The notes under the pieces are model-generated. The model did not search any database. It saw nothing but the letters and a program-made list of their open reading frames with translations, and was not told the origin of the DNA. A program made the position numbers and the translations under genes. A DNA stretch of 40,344 nt, taken from Ruminiclostridium sp. (GTDB lineage: Bacteria > Bacillota > Clostridia > Oscillospirales > Ruminococcaceae). This document shows positions 2,115 through 10,002 of this stretch, in pieces. Location of the stretch: NCBI GenBank assembly GCA_017465545.1, contig JAFTVY010000004.1, forward strand, positions 1 to 40,344, given 5' to 3'. Numbering within the stretch: position 1 is the stretch's first letter; each line of letters begins with the position of its first letter.

Positions 2115-3443
2115 ATGAAAATTAAATATATACTCACTTCCCTTTTCTATTTTTTAATATCAGCATTTATTGCAAACTCCTTTGTGATTATCACAGAAAT
2201 ACCACAGATACTGTTTGCGGTTATTCCCGTGTTTATTCTTATGAACATAGGTGCAGGGGTGCTGACTGTCAGAACACGGGAGCATACTCTTAAATATTGT
2301 TATCACGGGACGGTATTGCTAAGTGCCTTTTATCTGTCGCTGATATTATCGGTAATTTATCATATAGTGCTTGCTACAAAACGTCTGCCAGACGATTACG
2401 GAACGTTTATCTGGAGTGCAGTTATCTGCATAATCGTTCATTTCATCATTTTCTGGAACGGGATAATCTGCGTATATCTGACATCTACACAGCTTGGTAT
2501 CAAAATAAGGGTTATCGGGGTTATCTGCGGAATGATACCGATAGCGAATTTAGTAGCCTTGTTTTTTATTATAAAGACAACCGCAAGCGAGGTTTTCTTT
2601 GAAGTACAGAAGGAAAAGCTGAATCTTAAAAGACAAAAGGACAAAATCTGTGCAACAAAATATCCGATTCTTCTTGTACACGGAGTATTCTTCAGGGACT
2701 CAAAATTCTTCAACTACTGGGGTAGAATACCGAAGGAGCTTATTACTAACGGAGCAACTGTATTCTACGGCAATCAGCCCTCTGCCGCCGCAGTTTCAGA
2801 ATGTGCGGTATATATAAGGGACAGAGTACGGGAAATAATAGACGAGACGGGCGCTGAAAAGGTCAATATCATTGCTCATTCAAAGGGCGGTCTTGACTGC
2901 AGATACGCTGTGTCAAAGCTTGGAATTGAGGAAAACGTGGCTTCGCTCACTACTATAAACACACCACACAGGGGCTGCTTGTTTGCCGATTATCTGCTGA
3001 CAAAATTGCCGCCTGCTATAAAAAACAGAACGGCACAGACCTATAATATGGCGCTGAATAAATTCGGAGAGAAGGATTCGGATTTTTTAGCGGCAGTAAG
3101 CAATCTTACCGACAGCTACTGCTCTGTGCTTAATAATGAGCTTGAACAGCCGAAGAACGTATTCTGCCAGAGTGTTGGCTCGGTGCTTAAAAATGCCACG
3201 GGAGGAAAATTTCCGCTCAATTTCTCCTATCATTTAGTGCATCTGTTCAGCGGAGCAAATGACGGGCTTGTAAGTGAGGAAGCCTTCCCCTGGGGAGAAA
3301 AATATATACGCCTTACCCCGGCGGGTAAAAGAGGCATCTCCCACGGTGACGTAATCGACCTGAACAGAGAGAATATCAAGGGCTTTGACGTAAGGGAGTT
3401 CTACGTGAGGCTTGTAAGCGATCTGAAGAACAGAGGATTGTAA
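2115..3443 (+). CDS. Membrane-anchored alpha/beta hydrolase, lipase-like
   Basis: This 442-residue protein has two parts. Residues 1-155 hold about five hydrophobic helices, suggesting a membrane anchor. From about 183 there is an alpha/beta-hydrolase domain of the triacylglycerol lipase/PGAP1-like type: the oxyanion strand PILLVHGVFF, the nucleophile elbow AHSKGG with Ser256, a likely acid in GANDGLV (Asp383) and a likely His in GISHGDV (His410). The substrate is unknown; acyl esters or lipids are plausible. The ATG at 2115 is preferred over an in-frame TTG at 2100 because GGGGTGAT lies just before it. It stands alone between its own promoter and a strong terminator, inside the split spoVA locus. 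Confidence 0.8.
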   Translation: MKIKYILTSLFYFLISAFIANSFVIITEIPQILFAVIPVFILMNIGAGVLTVRTREHTLKYCYHGTVLLSAFYLSLILSVIYHIVLATKRLPDDYGTFIWSAVICIIVHFIIFWNGIICVYLTSTQLGIKIRVIGVICGMIPIANLVALFFIIKTTASEVFFEVQKEKLNLKRQKDKICATKYPILLVHGVFFRDSKFFNYWGRIPKELITNGATVFYGNQPSAAAVSECAVYIRDRVREIIDETGAEKVNIIAHSKGGLDCRYAVSKLGIEENVASLTTINTPHRGCLFADYLLTKLPPAIKNRTAQTYNMALNKFGEKDSDFLAAVSNLTDSYCSVLNNELEQPKNVFCQSVGSVLKNATGGKFPLNFSYHLVHLFSGANDGLVSEEAFPWGEKYIRLTPAGKRGISHGDVIDLNRENIKGFDVREFYVRLVSDLKNRGL

Positions 3444-3449
3444 ATAGCA

Positions 3450-3480
3450 AGACCATCGGTTTTATCCGATGGTCTTTTTG
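3450..3480 (+). terminator. Rho-independent terminator of the lipase-like gene
   Basis: A 10-bp stem (3450-3459 with 3466-3475, arms AGACCATCGG and CCGATGGTCT) with a 6-base loop is followed by a T-run. It lies between convergent genes. Confidence 0.9.
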
Positions 3481-3492
3481 TTATATCATTTA

Positions 3493-5805
3493 TCACATAA
3501 AAAGATACGCTTCGTCAGGGAAATAATATTCGCCCTCGCTGTTTTCAATACGCCAGAAGAATATGTACTCATCGTCAGAAATCGTTATTTCATCACCCTC
3601 CGATAATCCGGGGACACCGTCAATTCCTGAATCTATCACGCCTTTAAGAGGTGAAGTACCGGGAATTATTCTGACGAATATATCATCCTCGTCTGCGTAT
3701 TCGTCGCAATACTCTTCGGGTATATCCACGGTAAAGCCTGCAATAAGAATATCATCTTCAGAAATTTTTTCTGCAACCTTTCTGAAGGTGGCGTTCGCTA
3801 AAGCATATCTTTTGGCGTTCAGCTTTGCCGTATCACGGAATCTGAAAAGCTCCGTATCTTCTGTAGAAATTTCATTAAGAAGCAGAGTGGTAACTTCCCC
3901 GTCTTTAGTAAAGGAGATATACGGCACGGCAAATTCGCTATCCTCAAATTCCTGTGCATCGGGGTATACCGTTGTGGGAAGCTTCCAGCCGAACATTACC
4001 TGTGATTCCTCGTTATAGGAAACGCCGAAGGGTATCTCGGTATTTTCGTCAGGCATATTTCCGATTCCCGTCACGTAGGTGCATATCTGACTCATAAGTC
4101 TGACAATAAAATCGACGTTTTTCTCCTTGGCATTACGTACTATAAGCTGACGGGAGCCAAGCGTTGACAAGCCTGAAGTCATAAGGGCGATTTTATTGTC
4201 CTCACCCATCCCGAAGGCATAAACACGGAAAAGAAGATTGTCAATGGGCGGTACGTCAACCTCCGCCAGCATTTCTGCCCATCTGCACGGCAGAAGTCGG
4301 TAATTAACAAGCTCAAGTAAAAAGGGCGAAGCATCCTTGTTCAGCTTTACCGCAAGCTTTAAAAGCAGGAAAAGAAGTTCGTCTGCGGGCATTTCATCAC
4401 TATAACCGTTCAAGATAAGCATATAGCCGTAATCTTCTATAAAGCCTTCATATTCCGACTGTGTTACAGGATGAACGGCGTTAAAGCGGTCCATATCGTT
4501 ACAGATATCGCTGAGTCCCGCCACTATCTGAACGGACGCCTTGCTTTTCTCATCAGTAACTATGAACACAAGAGCGTCAGTTCTGTCATCAATATATCTT
4601 TCCTGGAGCTCTATGCCGTTTAAACTGATCAGGGCATCGTTTACCTCACTACCTGCGGGGAAGGAATCAGACGTTCTGAAGGGGATGGCAAGGGACAGCG
4701 GTATTTTATCGGCGGTGCTGTGACGGGGTAGCTTAAGTTCCTTTACAGGTGTTTCGGGGTACTGATACAGGAGTTTATCCATAAAGCTTGTGCTACCGTT
4801 TCTGTTATCGAATTTTTCTGCAAGTGCTTTTGCGGTATTATAGAAATATTCCTGAAGCTCTGATACCGAATAAAGGTTATCCTTATTATATTTTTCAAAG
4901 CTATGGGGCAAGGACATAGTAAGCTCGTCGCATCCCTGATCTGCTACGGATTTAAAGAATCTTGCAGAAGCGTCTGCAAAATAGAAGCGCATTTTAGGAT
5001 TGTGGCTTCTTACAAAAAAATCAAGGCTACGGGTAAACAGCTTAAACGCCTTGTCGGTATCGGTAAGAGCTTTTAAAAGGAGGATATGCGACGTTTCCAT
5101 AAGGAAATTATCGTTGTCGCCTATCATCGGCAGCAGCATATCCGCATAATGCTGAGCCTCGGATATTGCACCTATTTTCGTGAAATGCTCAACGCACTTT
5201 CCAAAGGTGACTTCCGGTACTTCTGCGCAGGAGATACCACGCTTTTTCATTTCTTCAAGCATAGAAATTGCCTTTTCCTCTGTGCCGAAGAGGAATTCTA
5301 CGCTGATATCGTGATTCATCTCACAAGCGGCACAGTCGCTTAAATCGTCACGCTCTGCCTGACGGAATTTCTGCCACAGCTCCTTTGATTTTTCGGGTTC
5401 TGTATCGGCGTAGAAAAGCATCGTCTTCATATAGTAGGTACGAAGAGAATATCCGTAACGCTCGCAGCGTATTCTGAACTCTTCAAAATAGCTTTCAGCC
5501 ATTTCCCTTGACACCTGATAGAAGTCCCTTATATCTTCAATTATCCATTTGAAGGCTATCATAAAGGAGTTTATATCCTCTTCACCGGGATTTGTCTGCT
5601 TATCGAAAAGCGACATATATTCAGGGAACATTATCACAGCCTTGTAGCAATCTCCGTTAAAGACCGACTCTCTTATGTACATATAACGAAGCTCAAGGGA
5701 CTGCGAGGAATCCTTTTCCTTGTCCGCTTCGTCGATACATTTTTTAAGATACTTCATTTTTTCTTCACCATCGGGAAGATTGTAAAAATATGCATTATCA
5801 AACAT
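3493..5805 (-). CDS. TPR-like protein with DUF4026/DUF2314-like C-terminal region, partner of HSP90-like ATPase
   Basis: This 770-residue, acidic, soluble protein has no signal peptide or membrane helix. Residues 1-350 look like a helical repeat solenoid of TPR type, with recurring 35-40-residue helix pairs rich in Tyr, Phe and Ala. A middle segment (about 375-600), including SGLSTLGSRQLIVRNAKEKN, resembles DUF4026. The last 150 residues, with VPGLSEGDEITISDDEYIFF, resemble the DUF2314 layout. These family links are from pattern memory and are uncertain. The gene starts 14 bases after the HSP90-like gene stops and has its own AAAGGAGC site, so the two form an operon. The context suggests a co-chaperone or client adaptor. 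No catalytic motif is visible. Confidence 0.6.
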   Translation of the reverse strand: MFDNAYFYNLPDGEEKMKYLKKCIDEADKEKDSSQSLELRYMYIRESVFNGDCYKAVIMFPEYMSLFDKQTNPGEEDINSFMIAFKWIIEDIRDFYQVSREMAESYFEEFRIRCERYGYSLRTYYMKTMLFYADTEPEKSKELWQKFRQAERDDLSDCAACEMNHDISVEFLFGTEEKAISMLEEMKKRGISCAEVPEVTFGKCVEHFTKIGAISEAQHYADMLLPMIGDNDNFLMETSHILLLKALTDTDKAFKLFTRSLDFFVRSHNPKMRFYFADASARFFKSVADQGCDELTMSLPHSFEKYNKDNLYSVSELQEYFYNTAKALAEKFDNRNGSTSFMDKLLYQYPETPVKELKLPRHSTADKIPLSLAIPFRTSDSFPAGSEVNDALISLNGIELQERYIDDRTDALVFIVTDEKSKASVQIVAGLSDICNDMDRFNAVHPVTQSEYEGFIEDYGYMLILNGYSDEMPADELLFLLLKLAVKLNKDASPFLLELVNYRLLPCRWAEMLAEVDVPPIDNLLFRVYAFGMGEDNKIALMTSGLSTLGSRQLIVRNAKEKNVDFIVRLMSQICTYVTGIGNMPDENTEIPFGVSYNEESQVMFGWKLPTTVYPDAQEFEDSEFAVPYISFTKDGEVTTLLLNEISTEDTELFRFRDTAKLNAKRYALANATFRKVAEKISEDDILIAGFTVDIPEEYCDEYADEDDIFVRIIPGTSPLKGVIDSGIDGVPGLSEGDEITISDDEYIFFWRIENSEGEYYFPDEAYLFM

Positions 5806-5819
5806 TTTAATAGCTCCTT

Positions 5820-7580
5820 TTATTCAATGCCCCACTCAATAAGCTTTATGAGGTTCTGATTCATTATATTCATTTCACTGCTATGAACGGGAAAGCCGCC
5901 AGCAATAAGCGATTGCACGTATAAAATCTGTGCATAGACCGACAGCTTTTCCTCGTCCGCTATTTCTGAAAGCTTTTTTATAAGGTGATTTTCACAGTTC
6001 AGATAAAGTACCGCAAAGGCTGAATTGTCAAGCTCCTCGCCAAAGGCGTCAAGCATACTGTCAAAAAGCCCTGATGAATTTTCCTTTGATTTGTTTATAT
6101 CACGTTTAAGCTCCGCTTCGCTACTCAGGGTATAGAGTGACGCCAGCTGATACGGAGAAAAGCCTTTAAGCACTACCCTGCAATCGTAAGGGTACAGCAC
6201 GCTATTAAAGGTATCCAGCATATAGCTGAAATCCTCTTCGTTTTCGGCATCCTCAAGAAGCTCCTCCAGCAGACTATCGTGCATCTGCTCGGTGTCTGAT
6301 ATTCCAAGAGCGGAAAGCATCGTGAGAAGCGCCCTGTCGTGCACGTATCCGCTGTTTACCAGAAGCTCGTTCTTTTCGGCAAACACAGGGCGGAGTTGTC
6401 GGAAGGCGTCTATATCGGAGGTGTAAAAAAGCTTGCCTTTATACTGCATGAGCTCCTTGCCGCTCAGATTACCGAAGCTGGTTTCAAAAACGAAATAAGG
6501 CATAAATATTCTGAACAGACGTTCATTTTCTGCACAGACGGATTTTAACGCCACTCCGTGAAGGGCTACGAGTTTCCCGAGCATAACGGGATCCTTTACG
6601 GATATTTTTTCAAGATATGCTGATATGCAGGCTGAAAGCTCTTCTTTGGCTTCATCAAGTAACGAATCCTTATAAAAATCCTCTCTTGAGGCTGTAGGGC
6701 TTAGCTTATCGGTATTGAAAAAGCATTGGATAAAGAATGCCCATTCGGGAAGCAGAGAGCTTCCGTCCTCGGTAAGAAGCATATTTTTAAGATAAATCCT
6801 ATGCTTGCTCTTTGAGGCGGCAGAGACCGTATAGGGCAGAATATAGGCTATTCCGCTGAATAGTCCCTTTTTAGAGTTAAGAGGAATATAATCAAGATAA
6901 TCGTAATCCGTGCCGAATATATTTTTACCCATACTGAGTATATCTCGGCGTTCGTCTCCGCTGTTTTCCGAAATCAGTATATTGACACGGAATTTTATAT
7001 TTTCATCTGTATGAACGTATACGGGATAAGGAATCGGGAGTCCGTAATATCTTATTATTTCAGTCACCTTTTCACGGGTGAAAAGATAGCTGTAGCTTTT
7101 TTCTGCTATTATAGTTATTTCCGTACCAACGGGCATATCGCTTTTTATTTCCTTTACGGAATATCTGCCATCGGAAAAGCCGTGCCATTCATAAGCCCTG
7201 TCGGGAGTTTTTATAGAACGGGTGCGAAGGGTTATCTCATCGGTGACGATAAAGCAGGATAAAAGTCCTATACCGAAACGCCCGATAAAGCCGCCGTCCT
7301 CTCCCCTTTTGGATGACTGACCGATAACCGAAATAAATTTATGTATCTCTTCTTCAGTAAGACCTGCGCCGTTATCTGAAAAGCTCAAAGAATTTTCCTC
7401 GTTCACTTTTATATCTATCTGCGGCTCACTGTAGGATGAGTCCAGCTGTTTGCGAAGGCTTATCGCATCGGCACAGTTCTGGAGAAGCTCTCTCAGGAAA
7501 ACTCCGGGACTACTGTACAGATGATTTGACAGTATATCTATCATACCGCCAAGATTTACGCTGAATGAATAATCGTTCAT
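5820..7580 (-). CDS. HSP90-family (HtpG-like) chaperone ATPase
   Basis: This 586-residue protein carries the GHKL ATP-binding fold and the Hsp90 middle domain. N-terminal motifs are FLRELLQNCADAI (Glu31, Asn35, Asp38), SDNGAGL (Asp69) and GRFGIG (100-105). The middle domain keeps LLPEW and NTDKLSPTASRED with the catalytic-loop Arg299 typical of Hsp90. The C-terminal 190 residues do not obviously match the HtpG dimerisation domain, and the protein is somewhat short for HtpG (about 620). It is therefore a divergent Hsp90 paralogue rather than plain HtpG. It leads an operon with the TPR-like protein at 3493-5805. Ribosome site AAAGGAG. No CIRCE or other heat-shock element is seen upstream. Confidence 0.85.
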   Translation of the reverse strand: MNDYSFSVNLGGMIDILSNHLYSSPGVFLRELLQNCADAISLRKQLDSSYSEPQIDIKVNEENSLSFSDNGAGLTEEEIHKFISVIGQSSKRGEDGGFIGRFGIGLLSCFIVTDEITLRTRSIKTPDRAYEWHGFSDGRYSVKEIKSDMPVGTEITIIAEKSYSYLFTREKVTEIIRYYGLPIPYPVYVHTDENIKFRVNILISENSGDERRDILSMGKNIFGTDYDYLDYIPLNSKKGLFSGIAYILPYTVSAASKSKHRIYLKNMLLTEDGSSLLPEWAFFIQCFFNTDKLSPTASREDFYKDSLLDEAKEELSACISAYLEKISVKDPVMLGKLVALHGVALKSVCAENERLFRIFMPYFVFETSFGNLSGKELMQYKGKLFYTSDIDAFRQLRPVFAEKNELLVNSGYVHDRALLTMLSALGISDTEQMHDSLLEELLEDAENEEDFSYMLDTFNSVLYPYDCRVVLKGFSPYQLASLYTLSSEAELKRDINKSKENSSGLFDSMLDAFGEELDNSAFAVLYLNCENHLIKKLSEIADEEKLSVYAQILYVQSLIAGGFPVHSSEMNIMNQNLIKLIEWGIE

Positions 7581-7614
7581 TGCCGCTCCTTTTCTGTCTA
7601 TAAATTTCTATTTA

Positions 7615-7643
7615 ATTATAGCACTTTTACATCCGGAATTCAA
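7615..7643 (-). promoter_or_regulatory. Sigma-A promoter of the HSP90-like operon
   Basis: TTGAAT (7638-7643), 17 bases and TATAAT (7615-7620) with an extended TGC before the -10, read on the minus strand. Confidence 0.8.
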
Positions 7644-7713
7644 TAAAAGACGGCTTTAAATGGCTGTACAGATATAAAATTTTTTATTACGTCAGAAAAA
7701 CGACTATTACCCC

Positions 7714-7742
7714 TTGACAAATAATAGGTAATATGTTATCAT
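7714..7742 (+). promoter_or_regulatory. Sigma-A promoter of the marR-flavodoxin operon
   Basis: TTGACA (7714-7719), 17 bases, TATCAT (7737-7742). It overlaps the first of two MarR-type sites. Confidence 0.8.
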
Positions 7743-7760
7743 TTATATGTAATATATTAC
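7728..7760. promoter_or_regulatory. Two MarR-type operator palindromes
   Basis: GTAATATATTAC (7749-7760) is a perfect 12-bp palindrome. GTAATATGTTAT (7728-7739) matches it at 10 of 12 positions and overlaps the -10 element. Their centres are 21 bases apart, two helical turns. This layout fits autorepression by the MarR protein encoded just downstream. Confidence 0.65.
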
Positions 7761-7782
7761 TTAATTTACTGAGGAGGTAAAA

Positions 7783-8259
7783 ATGGACATCAAGGAAGTT
7801 ATTAACAGCGGCAAGGTGGATTTTTCGGGTATCGAGTCATCTTATTTTCTCATCGGCTTATTAAGTGCCTTTGATAACAGATTTCAGGCGATGGCTGATA
7901 GTATGATGGAGGAAATCAGCTGGAAGCAGTTTTTTGCTATCATATGCATAAATATGTATAACGGAAAGCCGACTGTAAAGGAGCTTGCCGAAATAATGGG
8001 CAGCTCTCATCAGAACGTAAAGCAGATACTGATAAAATTAGAAAAGAAGGGTTTTGTAAGCATCGCCACAGACGAAACCGATAAAAGAAAGCAACGGATT
8101 GAGCTGACGGAATACTGCAGGGAGTTCTGTGAAAGAAACGACGAAACAAGTATGAATATTATGAAAACAATGTTCAGCGGTATTTCTGAAGAGCAGCTAC
8201 AAACCACTATAAAAACTATCATACAGATTGAAAATAATTTAAAGGAGATAGAGAAATGA
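7783..8259 (+). CDS. MarR-family transcriptional regulator
   Basis: This 158-residue protein has the winged helix-turn-helix of MarR regulators at about residues 62-112: KPTVKELAEIMGSSHQNVKQ forms the recognition region, followed by the wing segment with TDETDKRKQRIEL. MarR proteins bind as dimers to short palindromes and are released by small ligands or oxidation. An AGGAGG ribosome site precedes the ATG. The next gene overlaps by four bases (ATGA), so the regulator and flavodoxin are translated together. Two palindromes in its own promoter suggest autoregulation. The inducing signal is unknown; a redox link is inferred only from the flavodoxin neighbour. Confidence 0.9.
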   Translation: MDIKEVINSGKVDFSGIESSYFLIGLLSAFDNRFQAMADSMMEEISWKQFFAIICINMYNGKPTVKELAEIMGSSHQNVKQILIKLEKKGFVSIATDETDKRKQRIELTEYCREFCERNDETSMNIMKTMFSGISEEQLQTTIKTIIQIENNLKEIEK

Positions 8260-8783
8260 GCAAGGGAATTATTTTATATCAGTCAAAATACGGTTCAACT
8301 AAAAAATATGCAGACTGGCTTACGGAAATGACGGGCTTTGACCTTATTGAAACGAAAAAAGCCAAGGCTTCTGACCTTGGCAAGTATGACGTTATAATCT
8401 TAGGTGGTGGCGTATATGCATCTGGTATTCTGGGATTTTCCTTTTTAAAGAAGAATGTAAAGCTTTTTGCAGATAAGAAAATTGCAGTGTTTGCAGTCGG
8501 TGCTTCTCCCTATGATGAAAAGGCGATAGAGCAGATAAGACAGCTTCACTTCAAGGACACGCTTGAAAGCGTTCCGCTGTTCTACTGCAGAGGTGCCTGG
8601 GATGAGGAAAAGATGAAATTCGGTGACAGAACGCTTTGCAAAATGCTTCAGAAGGCGGTGGCAAAGCAGGACCCTGAGACGTTCGAACCGTGGCAGATGG
8701 CTCTTATGTCTGCGGTGGGGCAAAAATGCGACTGGACGAACAAGAAATATCTTGAACCGCTGATAAATTTTATAGAAGTATAA
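8256..8783 (+). CDS. Flavodoxin-domain protein (HemG/Flavodoxin_5-like)
   Basis: This 175-residue protein begins with a flavodoxin fold. The FMN phosphate loop is YQSKYGSTKKYA (residues 8-19), followed by DVIILGGGVYASGILG and IAVFAVGAS. The layout fits the flavodoxin-domain family that includes menaquinone-dependent protoporphyrinogen oxidase HemG, but many clostridial members have no known substrate. I therefore call only the fold and likely FMN binding. It overlaps the upstream marR gene by ATGA and is presumably under that regulator's control. It is unrelated in sequence to the short flavodoxin at 20725-21135. Confidence 0.85.
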   Translation: MSKGIILYQSKYGSTKKYADWLTEMTGFDLIETKKAKASDLGKYDVIILGGGVYASGILGFSFLKKNVKLFADKKIAVFAVGASPYDEKAIEQIRQLHFKDTLESVPLFYCRGAWDEEKMKFGDRTLCKMLQKAVAKQDPETFEPWQMALMSAVGQKCDWTNKKYLEPLINFIEV

Positions 8784-8804
8784 TCCGACAAAAAACTCAA
8801 TTAT

Positions 8805-8833
8805 TTGACACGTCCCGCAAATTGTGTTATTAT
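8805..8833 (+). promoter_or_regulatory. Sigma-A promoter of the small lipoprotein gene
   Basis: TTGACA (8805-8810), 17 bases, TATTAT (8828-8833) with an extended TG. Confidence 0.8.
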
Positions 8834-8883
8834 TATATTATAGAGAAACGAAGCTACACAGAATTAAAAGTGGGAGGTATAAA

Positions 8884-9453
8884 ATGAAAATGAGAAAAAC
8901 TTTAACAGCGCTTATCCTTACAGCGGTATTTGCGGTTACTTGTTCAGGCTGTGGTCAGATAGCAATGCCCTCCTTACCGTCAGGATCTACGGATAAGAAA
9001 GAAAGCAGTTATTCCGACACGGTTTCATCAGACACGCAGAACGATAATGCGGAAAGCGACAGCAACGAATCTGCCCCTTCTGAAACGAAGAAGCCTGAAA
9101 CAGACGAGTCAAAGCCTGAAACCACCACAACGAAGGCACCCGAAACAGAGAAGCCTGCAAGGGATAACTATTCTGTATCTATCAGCATTGAGTGTGAAGA
9201 GAATCTGGCATTCAGCAGATATGACGTTGACGTGTATGTAGACGGAAAGCATATAGGCACTATGGATCACGGCATCAAGAAGACCTTTGATCTTACGCTG
9301 AAGGGCGGAAAGCACGAAATCACCTTCACCAAGGAGGGCGATACCTCTATAGACGGCTCAACGGACGTTACAATTTCCGATGACTGTGTGTACAGCATAC
9401 TGATACATTGCAGAAAGGATCAGGTAAAGATAAAGGAAGTAAACAACGGATAA
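8884..9453 (+). CDS. Putative lipoprotein with Ser/Thr/Glu/Pro-rich linker
   Basis: This 189-residue protein starts at the ATG at 8884 (MKMRKTLTALILT), where GGGAGG is correctly placed; an upstream in-frame start lies in the promoter. A lipoprotein-type signal peptide ends near TCSGCGQ, with Cys19 or Cys22 as the lipidated residue. Residues 35-95 are low-complexity linker (Ser, Asp, Glu, Lys, Thr, Pro), including TTTTKAPETEKPA. The last 95 residues form a likely beta-sandwich (VDVYVDGKHIGTMDHG, then KGGKHEITFTKEG), reminiscent of PEGA-type surface domains. It is probably anchored to the outer face of the membrane. The function is unknown. The linker style matches the deacetylase at 23243. Confidence 0.75.
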   Translation: MKMRKTLTALILTAVFAVTCSGCGQIAMPSLPSGSTDKKESSYSDTVSSDTQNDNAESDSNESAPSETKKPETDESKPETTTTKAPETEKPARDNYSVSISIECEENLAFSRYDVDVYVDGKHIGTMDHGIKKTFDLTLKGGKHEITFTKEGDTSIDGSTDVTISDDCVYSILIHCRKDQVKIKEVNNG

Positions 9454-9488: not shown

Positions 9489-9932
9489 TTATAATAACGT
9501 CATAATCCAGTAGATAACCCCATAGGTAACGCTTGCCGTTATGCCGTAGACTATTACGGGACCTGCGATTATAAACATTTTTGCGCCCGTACCTAAAATA
9601 TAACCTTCGGTCTTGAATTCAAGAGCGGGAGATACTACGGCGTTTGCAAAACCTGTGATAGGCACAAGAGTACCTGCGCCGCCGTGCTTTGCTATTCTTT
9701 CATACAGTCCGAAGCCGGTCAGCACCGCACTTATCAGTATAAGCGTTATAGAAGTAAATGCCGCCGCCTGCTCTTCGTCAAGTCCCGTATTTTTATAAAG
9801 ATTAAGAAAAAACTGTCCTACCATACAGATAAATCCGCCTATCAGGTATGCCTTTGGAACGGTTTTATACAGCTTTGACTTGCCTGAATGCTTTTTACTT
9901 ATCCTGCTGTATTCCGTTTTGCTGATATTCAT
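9489..9932 (-). CDS. spoVAC: Stage V sporulation protein AC (SpoVAC)
   Basis: This 147-residue membrane protein of the SpoVAC/SpoVAEB family forms part of the dipicolinate channel. It shows KAYLIGGFICMVGQFFLNLY, GFGLYERIAKHGGAGTLVPI and GFANAVVSPALEFKTEGYIL, each typical of SpoVAC. The ATG at 9932 has a GGAGG site five bases upstream. A longer frame from 9989 is rejected because its start overlaps the likely promoter. Its expected partners spoVAD and spoVAE are 7.5 kb downstream on the same strand, with unrelated genes between, many on the opposite strand. That is unusual, because these genes normally sit in one operon. Confidence 0.95.
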   Translation of the reverse strand: MNISKTEYSRISKKHSGKSKLYKTVPKAYLIGGFICMVGQFFLNLYKNTGLDEEQAAAFTSITLILISAVLTGFGLYERIAKHGGAGTLVPITGFANAVVSPALEFKTEGYILGTGAKMFIIAGPVIVYGITASVTYGVIYWIMTLL

Positions 9933-9958
9933 AATATCCTCCGCCTTCCCTTTTTTGT

Positions 9959-9988
9959 TATTTTCTACAGTACGGAGTGATTTATTCA
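9959..9988 (-). promoter_or_regulatory. Possible sigma-G-like promoter of spoVAC
   Basis: TGAATA (9983-9988) with the same TTGAATAA context as the spoVAD promoter, 17 bases, then GAAAATA (9959-9965), which matches the sigma-G -10 at four of seven positions. The -35 is good and the -10 is weak. Confidence 0.5.
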
Positions 9989-10002
9989 ATGATTTTCAAG
10001 AA

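Follow-up and report, generated by a model that had tools for sequence, protein, structure and literature searches.

The window examined here is the whole 40,344-nucleotide stretch formed by positions 1 to 40,344 of contig JAFTVY010000004.1 (Ruminiclostridium sp., assembly GCA_017465545.1), and its reverse strand carries two adjoining genes that encode a divergent HSP90 and, directly downstream, a protein whose N-terminal half is predicted to consist of tetratricopeptide repeats (TPRs). We call the latter protein the partner. Both open reading frames and the 14-nucleotide gap between them were confirmed as a first-pass annotation of the sequence had reported them (Table 1). That annotation had also proposed conserved adjacency in related genomes as a check on the pairing, and such adjacency was found: a partner homologue lies directly downstream of 73 of the 75 HSP90s of this type in all sets combined.

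Table 1. Features of the HSP90–partner locus, in positions of the window.
Feature	Position	Strand	Remarks
Candidate sigma-70 promoter TTGAAT-17-TATAAT, upstream of HSP90	7615..7643	(-)	consensus scan
Divergent HSP90 gene	5820..7580	(-)	586 aa; NF010683 match, ATPase residues, own clade
Intergenic gap, 14 nt, with AAAGGAG ribosome-binding site for the partner	5806..5819	(-)	sequence
Partner gene	3493..5805	(-)	770 aa; predicted N-terminal TPR superhelix, C-terminal DUF4026-like half
TPR half, partner residues 1-351	4753..5805	(-)	common to all lineages seen
Cysteine motif DCxAC (Cys158, Cys161) plus Cys193	5227..5337	(-)	conservation in partner N-domains
DUF4026-like half, partner residues 352-770	3496..4752	(-)	DUF4026 matches among relatives

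The window HSP90 matched the NCBIfam model NF010683 ("HSP90 family protein"; PRK14083) with 570.7 bits over residues 4–585, above the curated cut-off of 455, and scored 160.3 bits against the HtpG model NF003555, under that model's cut-off of 371. Because the score is so far under the HtpG cut-off, and because the genome has a separate HtpG on contig C57 (688 bits against the same cut-off) that is linked to a CIRCE (controlling inverted repeat of chaperone expression) site, an ordinary HtpG was ruled out. The ATPase motifs named in the first-pass annotation are all in place. Glu31, Asn35, Asp38, Asp69, and Arg299 are correct in the window protein and invariant in 32 of 32 aligned HSP90s, and the protein thus has the N-domain catalytic residues (Glu, Asn, Asp) and the middle-domain Arg expected of an HSP90 as a GHKL ATPase chaperone. 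The top solved relatives in a PDB sequence search were HtpG and TRAP1. Domain order is identical to that of HtpG, and all three parts could be aligned with it by profile, with probabilities of 99.9% for the N-terminal, 95% for the middle, and 98% for the C-terminal part. The C-terminal third, earlier described as unusual, is therefore divergent and not new; an alien origin for it was ruled out by the same alignment. In a tree of 32 HSP90s, the NF010683-type proteins formed a clade (support 100/99) separate from HtpG. Loci L032, L035, L038, and L040 were left out of this tree (near-duplicates; L040 split), as were six of the 12 HtpG-type loci offered to it, which failed a motif filter. In L040 (L040:4299-6337, Ruminococcus UBA3286), the HSP90 is broken into two open reading frames beside an intact partner, by sequencing error or decay.

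The first ~350 residues of the partner are predicted to form a TPR superhelix, with structure-search matches spanning residues 1–351 and with the stacked antiparallel helix pairs of a TPR solenoid in the predicted structure, in agreement with the earlier reading of this half. The window partner exceeded no Pfam or NCBIfam family cut-off and had no solved relative in a PDB sequence search, and none of the other partners scanned against NCBIfam exceeded any family cut-off. Pfam DUF4026 gave 14.1 bits with the window partner, under the gathering score of 27, while relatives match DUF4026 down to E 6.8e-10; we therefore label the C-terminal half DUF4026-like. Within alignment A1 (10 members), DUF4026_N was matched by five and DUF4026_C by three. 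A profile of this half found no match in loci L043–L052 (Bacilli, Streptomyces, Proteobacteria, Cyanobacteria, gut) or L058–L062 (Paenibacillaceae), and partners of 324–371 residues from Listeria, Paenibacillaceae, and some Clostridia consist of nothing but the TPR part, which excludes the DUF4026-like half from the core. Three Streptomyces partners likewise contain the TPR half, and the 1033-residue S. globosus partner has extra TPR matches C-terminal to the shared part. By sequence comparison, then, what all partners have in common is the TPR half, usually with its DCxAC...C cysteines, and the C-terminal half varies by lineage; of the TPR/DUF4026-like composition given in the first-pass annotation, the first element describes the family and the second a lineage-specific addition.

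Cys158, Cys161, and Cys193 are each present in 21 of 23 partner N-domains (Clostridia, Bacilli, Streptomyces, and a gut record), the DCxAC motif being absent in the L004 and L031 partners. Among Paenibacillaceae loci, the motif was found in 30 of 31 and not in L075. According to the predicted helix list, Cys158 and Cys161 begin one helix and Cys193 stands just ahead of the helix two places on, so that the three residues may be close together. They would possibly form a redox switch or a metal site.

Tandem pairs of partners occur in Listeria, G447, G765, G822, and G838. Behind the two Listeria partners lies a SUKH (SMI1/KNR4) gene (L044:8882-9628), and one of the Listeria partners at L044:6818-8786 may be lmo0941. 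If so, it is the gene, given as of unknown function, at which signatures of selection have been reported (PMC6901971).

Several lines of evidence tie the two genes together. First, the adjacency recurs in separate samples. The partner was directly downstream and on the same strand at 13 of 14 Clostridia loci (11 from a GTDB contig scan, G235, G021, and the window, to which L032 and L038 are near-identical). It stood beside 53 of 54 Paenibacillaceae HSP90s: 52 of the 53 over threshold, and that of G735, a genome that seemed to hold the partner only and has a 531-residue HSP90 reading frame right before it that was missed at the E threshold. In plasmid- and phage-collection records it was next door in 7 of 7 (two from Listeria with many chromosomal-type genes, one from Paenibacillus cellulosilyticus, three from Streptomyces, and one gut record). 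Adjacency was judged from coordinates for the Listeria record H2 and from neighbours for L040, neither of which was scored against NF010683; that model's cut-off was exceeded by all 19 non-Paenibacillaceae HSP90s scored singly and by all 53 Paenibacillaceae ones. Second, a control set of 31 HtpG-type loci had the partner beside none of them within ~1.5 kb on each side, some of these flanks being cut by contig ends; the ten control loci that were scored all exceeded the HtpG cut-off. Third, presence is matched. Among 148 Paenibacillaceae genomes, 53 had the HSP90 (E <= 1e-110), 53 had the partner (E <= 1e-10), and 52 had both (Fisher p 9e-38), always on the same strand with 8–47 nucleotides between the matched stretches. 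HSP90 and partner were also found in the identical 2 of 291 genomes of a class sample and the identical 6 of 398 genomes of a phylum sample, two samples that overlap. Finally, HSP90 and partner tree distances for 19 pairs were correlated in a Mantel test (r 0.91; of 9999 permutations, none gave so high a value).

The regulatory sequences of the two Hsp90s of this genome differ. No CIRCE site was found anywhere in the window, allowing up to three mismatches, whereas three perfect CIRCE sites occur in the genome, including one 36 nucleotides upstream of the start of the HtpG match on C57. This contrast suggests that the two Hsp90s of the cell are likely under different control, and it supports the first-pass statement that the window gene lacks CIRCE and is no ordinary heat-shock gene, in the sense of an additional Hsp90 that does not belong to the HrcA/CIRCE regulon. 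The candidate promoter lies 34 nucleotides before the HSP90 start; promoter-like sites across 3300–8000 were at chance level (10 found vs 10.8 expected). In Listeria, the HSP90 adjoins fri, with a gene order and a 202-bp gap that match a table in PMC3534079, and by these marks is evidently lmo0942. That gene is listed among heat-shock genes in PMC10393277, which speaks for a possible heat role in Listeria.

The analysis establishes that the Hsp90 is intact and retains its ATPase residues, that the partner has a predicted TPR fold, that adjacency and co-occurrence are near-obligate in the genomes sampled, that tree distances are correlated, and that the two Hsp90s of the genome differ in CIRCE. 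On these grounds of sequence and structure prediction, we assign a probability of about 60% to a dedicated Hsp90–TPR module, with the TPR protein acting as co-chaperone or as adaptor for clients. The upstream gene encodes an ATP-driven, presumably dimeric Hsp90 of a paralogue family distinct from HtpG, and the downstream gene would encode the co-chaperone or client adaptor of that adjacent Hsp90. The conserved TPR superhelix would bind the Hsp90 by a route other than an MEEVD tail and would either regulate its ATPase cycle or deliver clients to it. The C-terminal half, which depending on lineage is missing, DUF4026-like, or made up of further TPRs, would set the clients or surfaces engaged. 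The window HSP90 ends in ...LIEWGIE, and an MEEVD terminus was absent from all 24 tails of NF010683-type or related HSP90s inspected. An IEWG/VEWG end is common to the window protein and ten partner-bearing Clostridia HSP90s (L032–L036, L038–L042) and is absent in the partnerless L037. It is also absent in the partner-bearing L030, L031, Paenibacillus cellulosilyticus, Listeria, and Streptomyces, and because several partner-bearing HSP90s end without it, this sequence was dropped as a general MEEVD-like docking tail.

Several observations weigh against a dedicated module. The family has no universal C-terminal tail on which a TPR protein could dock, the IEWG/VEWG end being limited to part of the Clostridia, and the predicted single-chain structure of the window HSP90 is poor (predicted local distance difference test score 64.5) and was left out of fold searches. 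Two HSP90s stand without the partner: that of L037, which is intact, is followed by unrelated genes, and has no partner match in its 13.7 kb, and that of G745. Conversely, G024 (72% complete) has a divergent partner homologue (29% identity, no cysteine motif) on a 3.8-kb contig with no adjacent HSP90 and no Hsp90 match in the genome at E 1e-30, and a 1011-residue partner homologue in Actinomyces oris lacks an HSP90 within 5 kb. Divergent orphans may be missed, because query A3 for the partner derives from genes next to HSP90s; the initial residues of its rows L058, L059, and L060, which were read from stop to stop, may not be real; Actinomycetota were sampled through plasmid records only; and the correlation of tree distances also contains shared descent.

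A different division of roles would make the TPR protein an obligate client or effector, a signal sensor like Rap, NprR, or MalT that depends on its own Hsp90 for folding or activation. This strikes us as considerably less probable than a co-chaperone or adaptor, although it is the strongest of the alternatives. TPR superhelices look alike regardless of function. The partners scanned with Pfam showed neither a DNA-binding nor a phosphatase domain, and the short partners (324–366 residues) are TPR alone.

The genomic history of the pair bears on a second alternative, a mobile accessory module that would serve, for example, phage defence or stress and whose HSP90 fold would work as a sensing or effector ATPase instead of a general chaperone. 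In the window, spoVAC is split from spoVAD/spoVAE by ~7.5 kb (567-1964 and 9489-9989), whereas spoVAC, spoVAD, and spoVAE stand together in 27 of 30 loci examined in the same genus (SpoVAD was found in 33 of 40 genomes surveyed); in one locus the contig ends. The genome with the most similar SpoVAD, G028, is also split at this site, by a shorter insert of an esterase and a small gene; the site has neither the HSP90 pair nor the MarR-flavodoxin genes, and G028 has no second NF010683-type match. The site was therefore interrupted already when the pair either arrived there or was lost, and the pair behaves as an accessory unit. The genes absent from G028 at this site along with the pair lie at 7783-9453 of the window, divergent from the HSP90 pair, and encode a MarR regulator, a flavodoxin, and a 209-residue protein.

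Mobility would fit this absence from a near relative and the patchy presence of the pair elsewhere (2 of 60 relatives over the cut-off, 53 of 148 Paenibacillaceae). It would also fit the PHROGs families that exist for both proteins (phrog_32952, 312 bits; phrog_34905, 99 bits), which indicate that genes of both kinds have been found in records labelled as phage, and a match of the PADLOC model TmtA (Tiamat) to the HSP90 ATPase region at E 1e-12. The PADLOC matches, however, span only ~100 residues of the ATPase domain, the best model being matched over 24–125 of its 1302 positions and not over its full length, and the middle and C-terminal Hsp90 parts are retained. In addition, no clear defence family was found in the partner and the eight neighbours scanned, and two pattern scans (A3, A2) found no relatives in IMG/VR contigs. 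We regard a defence or stress module of this kind as improbable. Short phage-labelled Listeria fragments also match the pair proteins. That the genes are unrelated and merely share an operon, being co-directional and 14 nucleotides apart, is very improbable given the 73/75 adjacency and the matched presence in sampled genomes, with gene order kept in Bacillota and Streptomyces while the flanking genes differ.

A similar arrangement occurs in Gammaproteobacteria (E. coli, Salmonella, P. aeruginosa, Xanthomonas), where an HSP90-like gene is followed at 1–36 nucleotides by a 764–774-residue protein with a CxxC motif and, where scanned, weak TPR matches. Unlike the window HSP90, these HSP90-like proteins score under the NF010683 cut-off (277–293 bits). 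They group with the NF010683-type clade against HtpG (97/91; midpoint root, with a warning of long branches), and hhalign of the two kinds of partner gave 13%, too little to show homology. This HSP90-like/TPR-like pair (L063:8001-12144, L052, L048, L049) is present in 149 of 5426 complete E. coli genomes, always on the chromosome; in strain FDAARGOS_144 it lies between fdhD and yiiG. The P. aeruginosa partner (L048:6831-9125) may be PA1069; if it is, a table in PMC4957987 gives log2 changes at elevated temperature of -1.98 for this gene and +2.83 for htpG. An accessory htpG_2 is listed in E. coli (PMC9837563) and is perhaps the same gene as the HSP90-like one described here.

Other neighbourhoods are built differently. 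A Pseudanabaena plasmid (L050:4213-9795) encodes a TIR-domain protein, an 877-residue HSP90-like ATPase, a 232-residue protein, and a TPR protein, possibly a defence island. In G024, the reading frame upstream of the partner homologue (L004:3073-3786) matches partner residues 517–646, possibly as DUF4026-like paralogues in tandem, and the Actinomyces oris homologue (L152:3199-7916) lies behind a YbjN-domain protein and a 283-residue protein.

A wider and more tentative proposal is that bacteria have an old Hsp90–TPR machine of their own, found in Bacillota and Actinomycetota, with a near-obligate MEEVD-independent co-chaperone, a three-cysteine site, a C-terminal half that changes clients, and the Gammaproteobacterial pair as a second branch; we think it rather doubtful in this full form. 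The near-constant HSP90–TPR neighbourhood in the genomes sampled nonetheless points to a helper protein devoted to this Hsp90, a kind of partner known chiefly from eukaryotes, and it contrasts with bacterial Hsp90 described as lacking identified obligate co-chaperones (PMC3708813). A paralogue that in these genomes nearly always comes with one TPR protein would offer a simple system of two proteins for studying what Hsp90 gains from a co-chaperone, and the pair bears on whether partnerships with TPR proteins have several origins and on the role of a neglected second bacterial Hsp90.

A search of the open literature found no description of an HSP90–TPR pair of this kind. Hop and FKBP51 are examples of eukaryotic Hsp90 co-chaperones with TPRs. 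Bacterial Hsp90 paralogues have been divided into A, B, and C (Chen et al., 2006, PMC1525184; Press et al., 2013, PMC3708813), and hsp90C, or HTPG Group C, is described as a lineage apart from HtpG (Group A) that occurs in Firmicutes and Actinobacteria, sometimes beside an ordinary HtpG. The NF010683-type HSP90 is probably this paralogue, recognised since 2006. The available text of the two hsp90C accounts mentions no neighbour gene, whereas the NF010683-type HSP90 has an adjacent partner; likewise, NF010683/PRK14083 matches the window HSP90 over its full length, but the family name is silent on a partner. The available text of Press et al. (2013) states that no obligate bacterial Hsp90 co-chaperone had been identified, with hsp90B and hsp90C left out of the analysis, and E. 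coli HtpG is described as a stand-alone machine (PMC4428384). The HtpG of this genome, unlike the NF010683-type HSP90, is CIRCE-linked, and the 31 HtpG-type loci inspected lack the partner. Eukaryotic Hsp90 and its TPR co-chaperones such as Sti1 and Cpr6 (PMC4428384) likewise join an Hsp90 to a TPR protein. Those co-chaperones dock on a C-terminal MEEVD, which the window HSP90 lacks and for which its family has no common substitute, and the TPR part of the window partner is one predicted superhelix of 350 residues that in some lineages is fused to another domain. Among bacteria, HtpG with DnaK/DnaJ partners, as reported for M. tuberculosis HtpG–DnaJ2 (PMC10269695), is, like the pair described here, an Hsp90 with a protein partner, but DnaJ2 would be a partner of HtpG from the Hsp70 system and not a TPR protein encoded beside its Hsp90.

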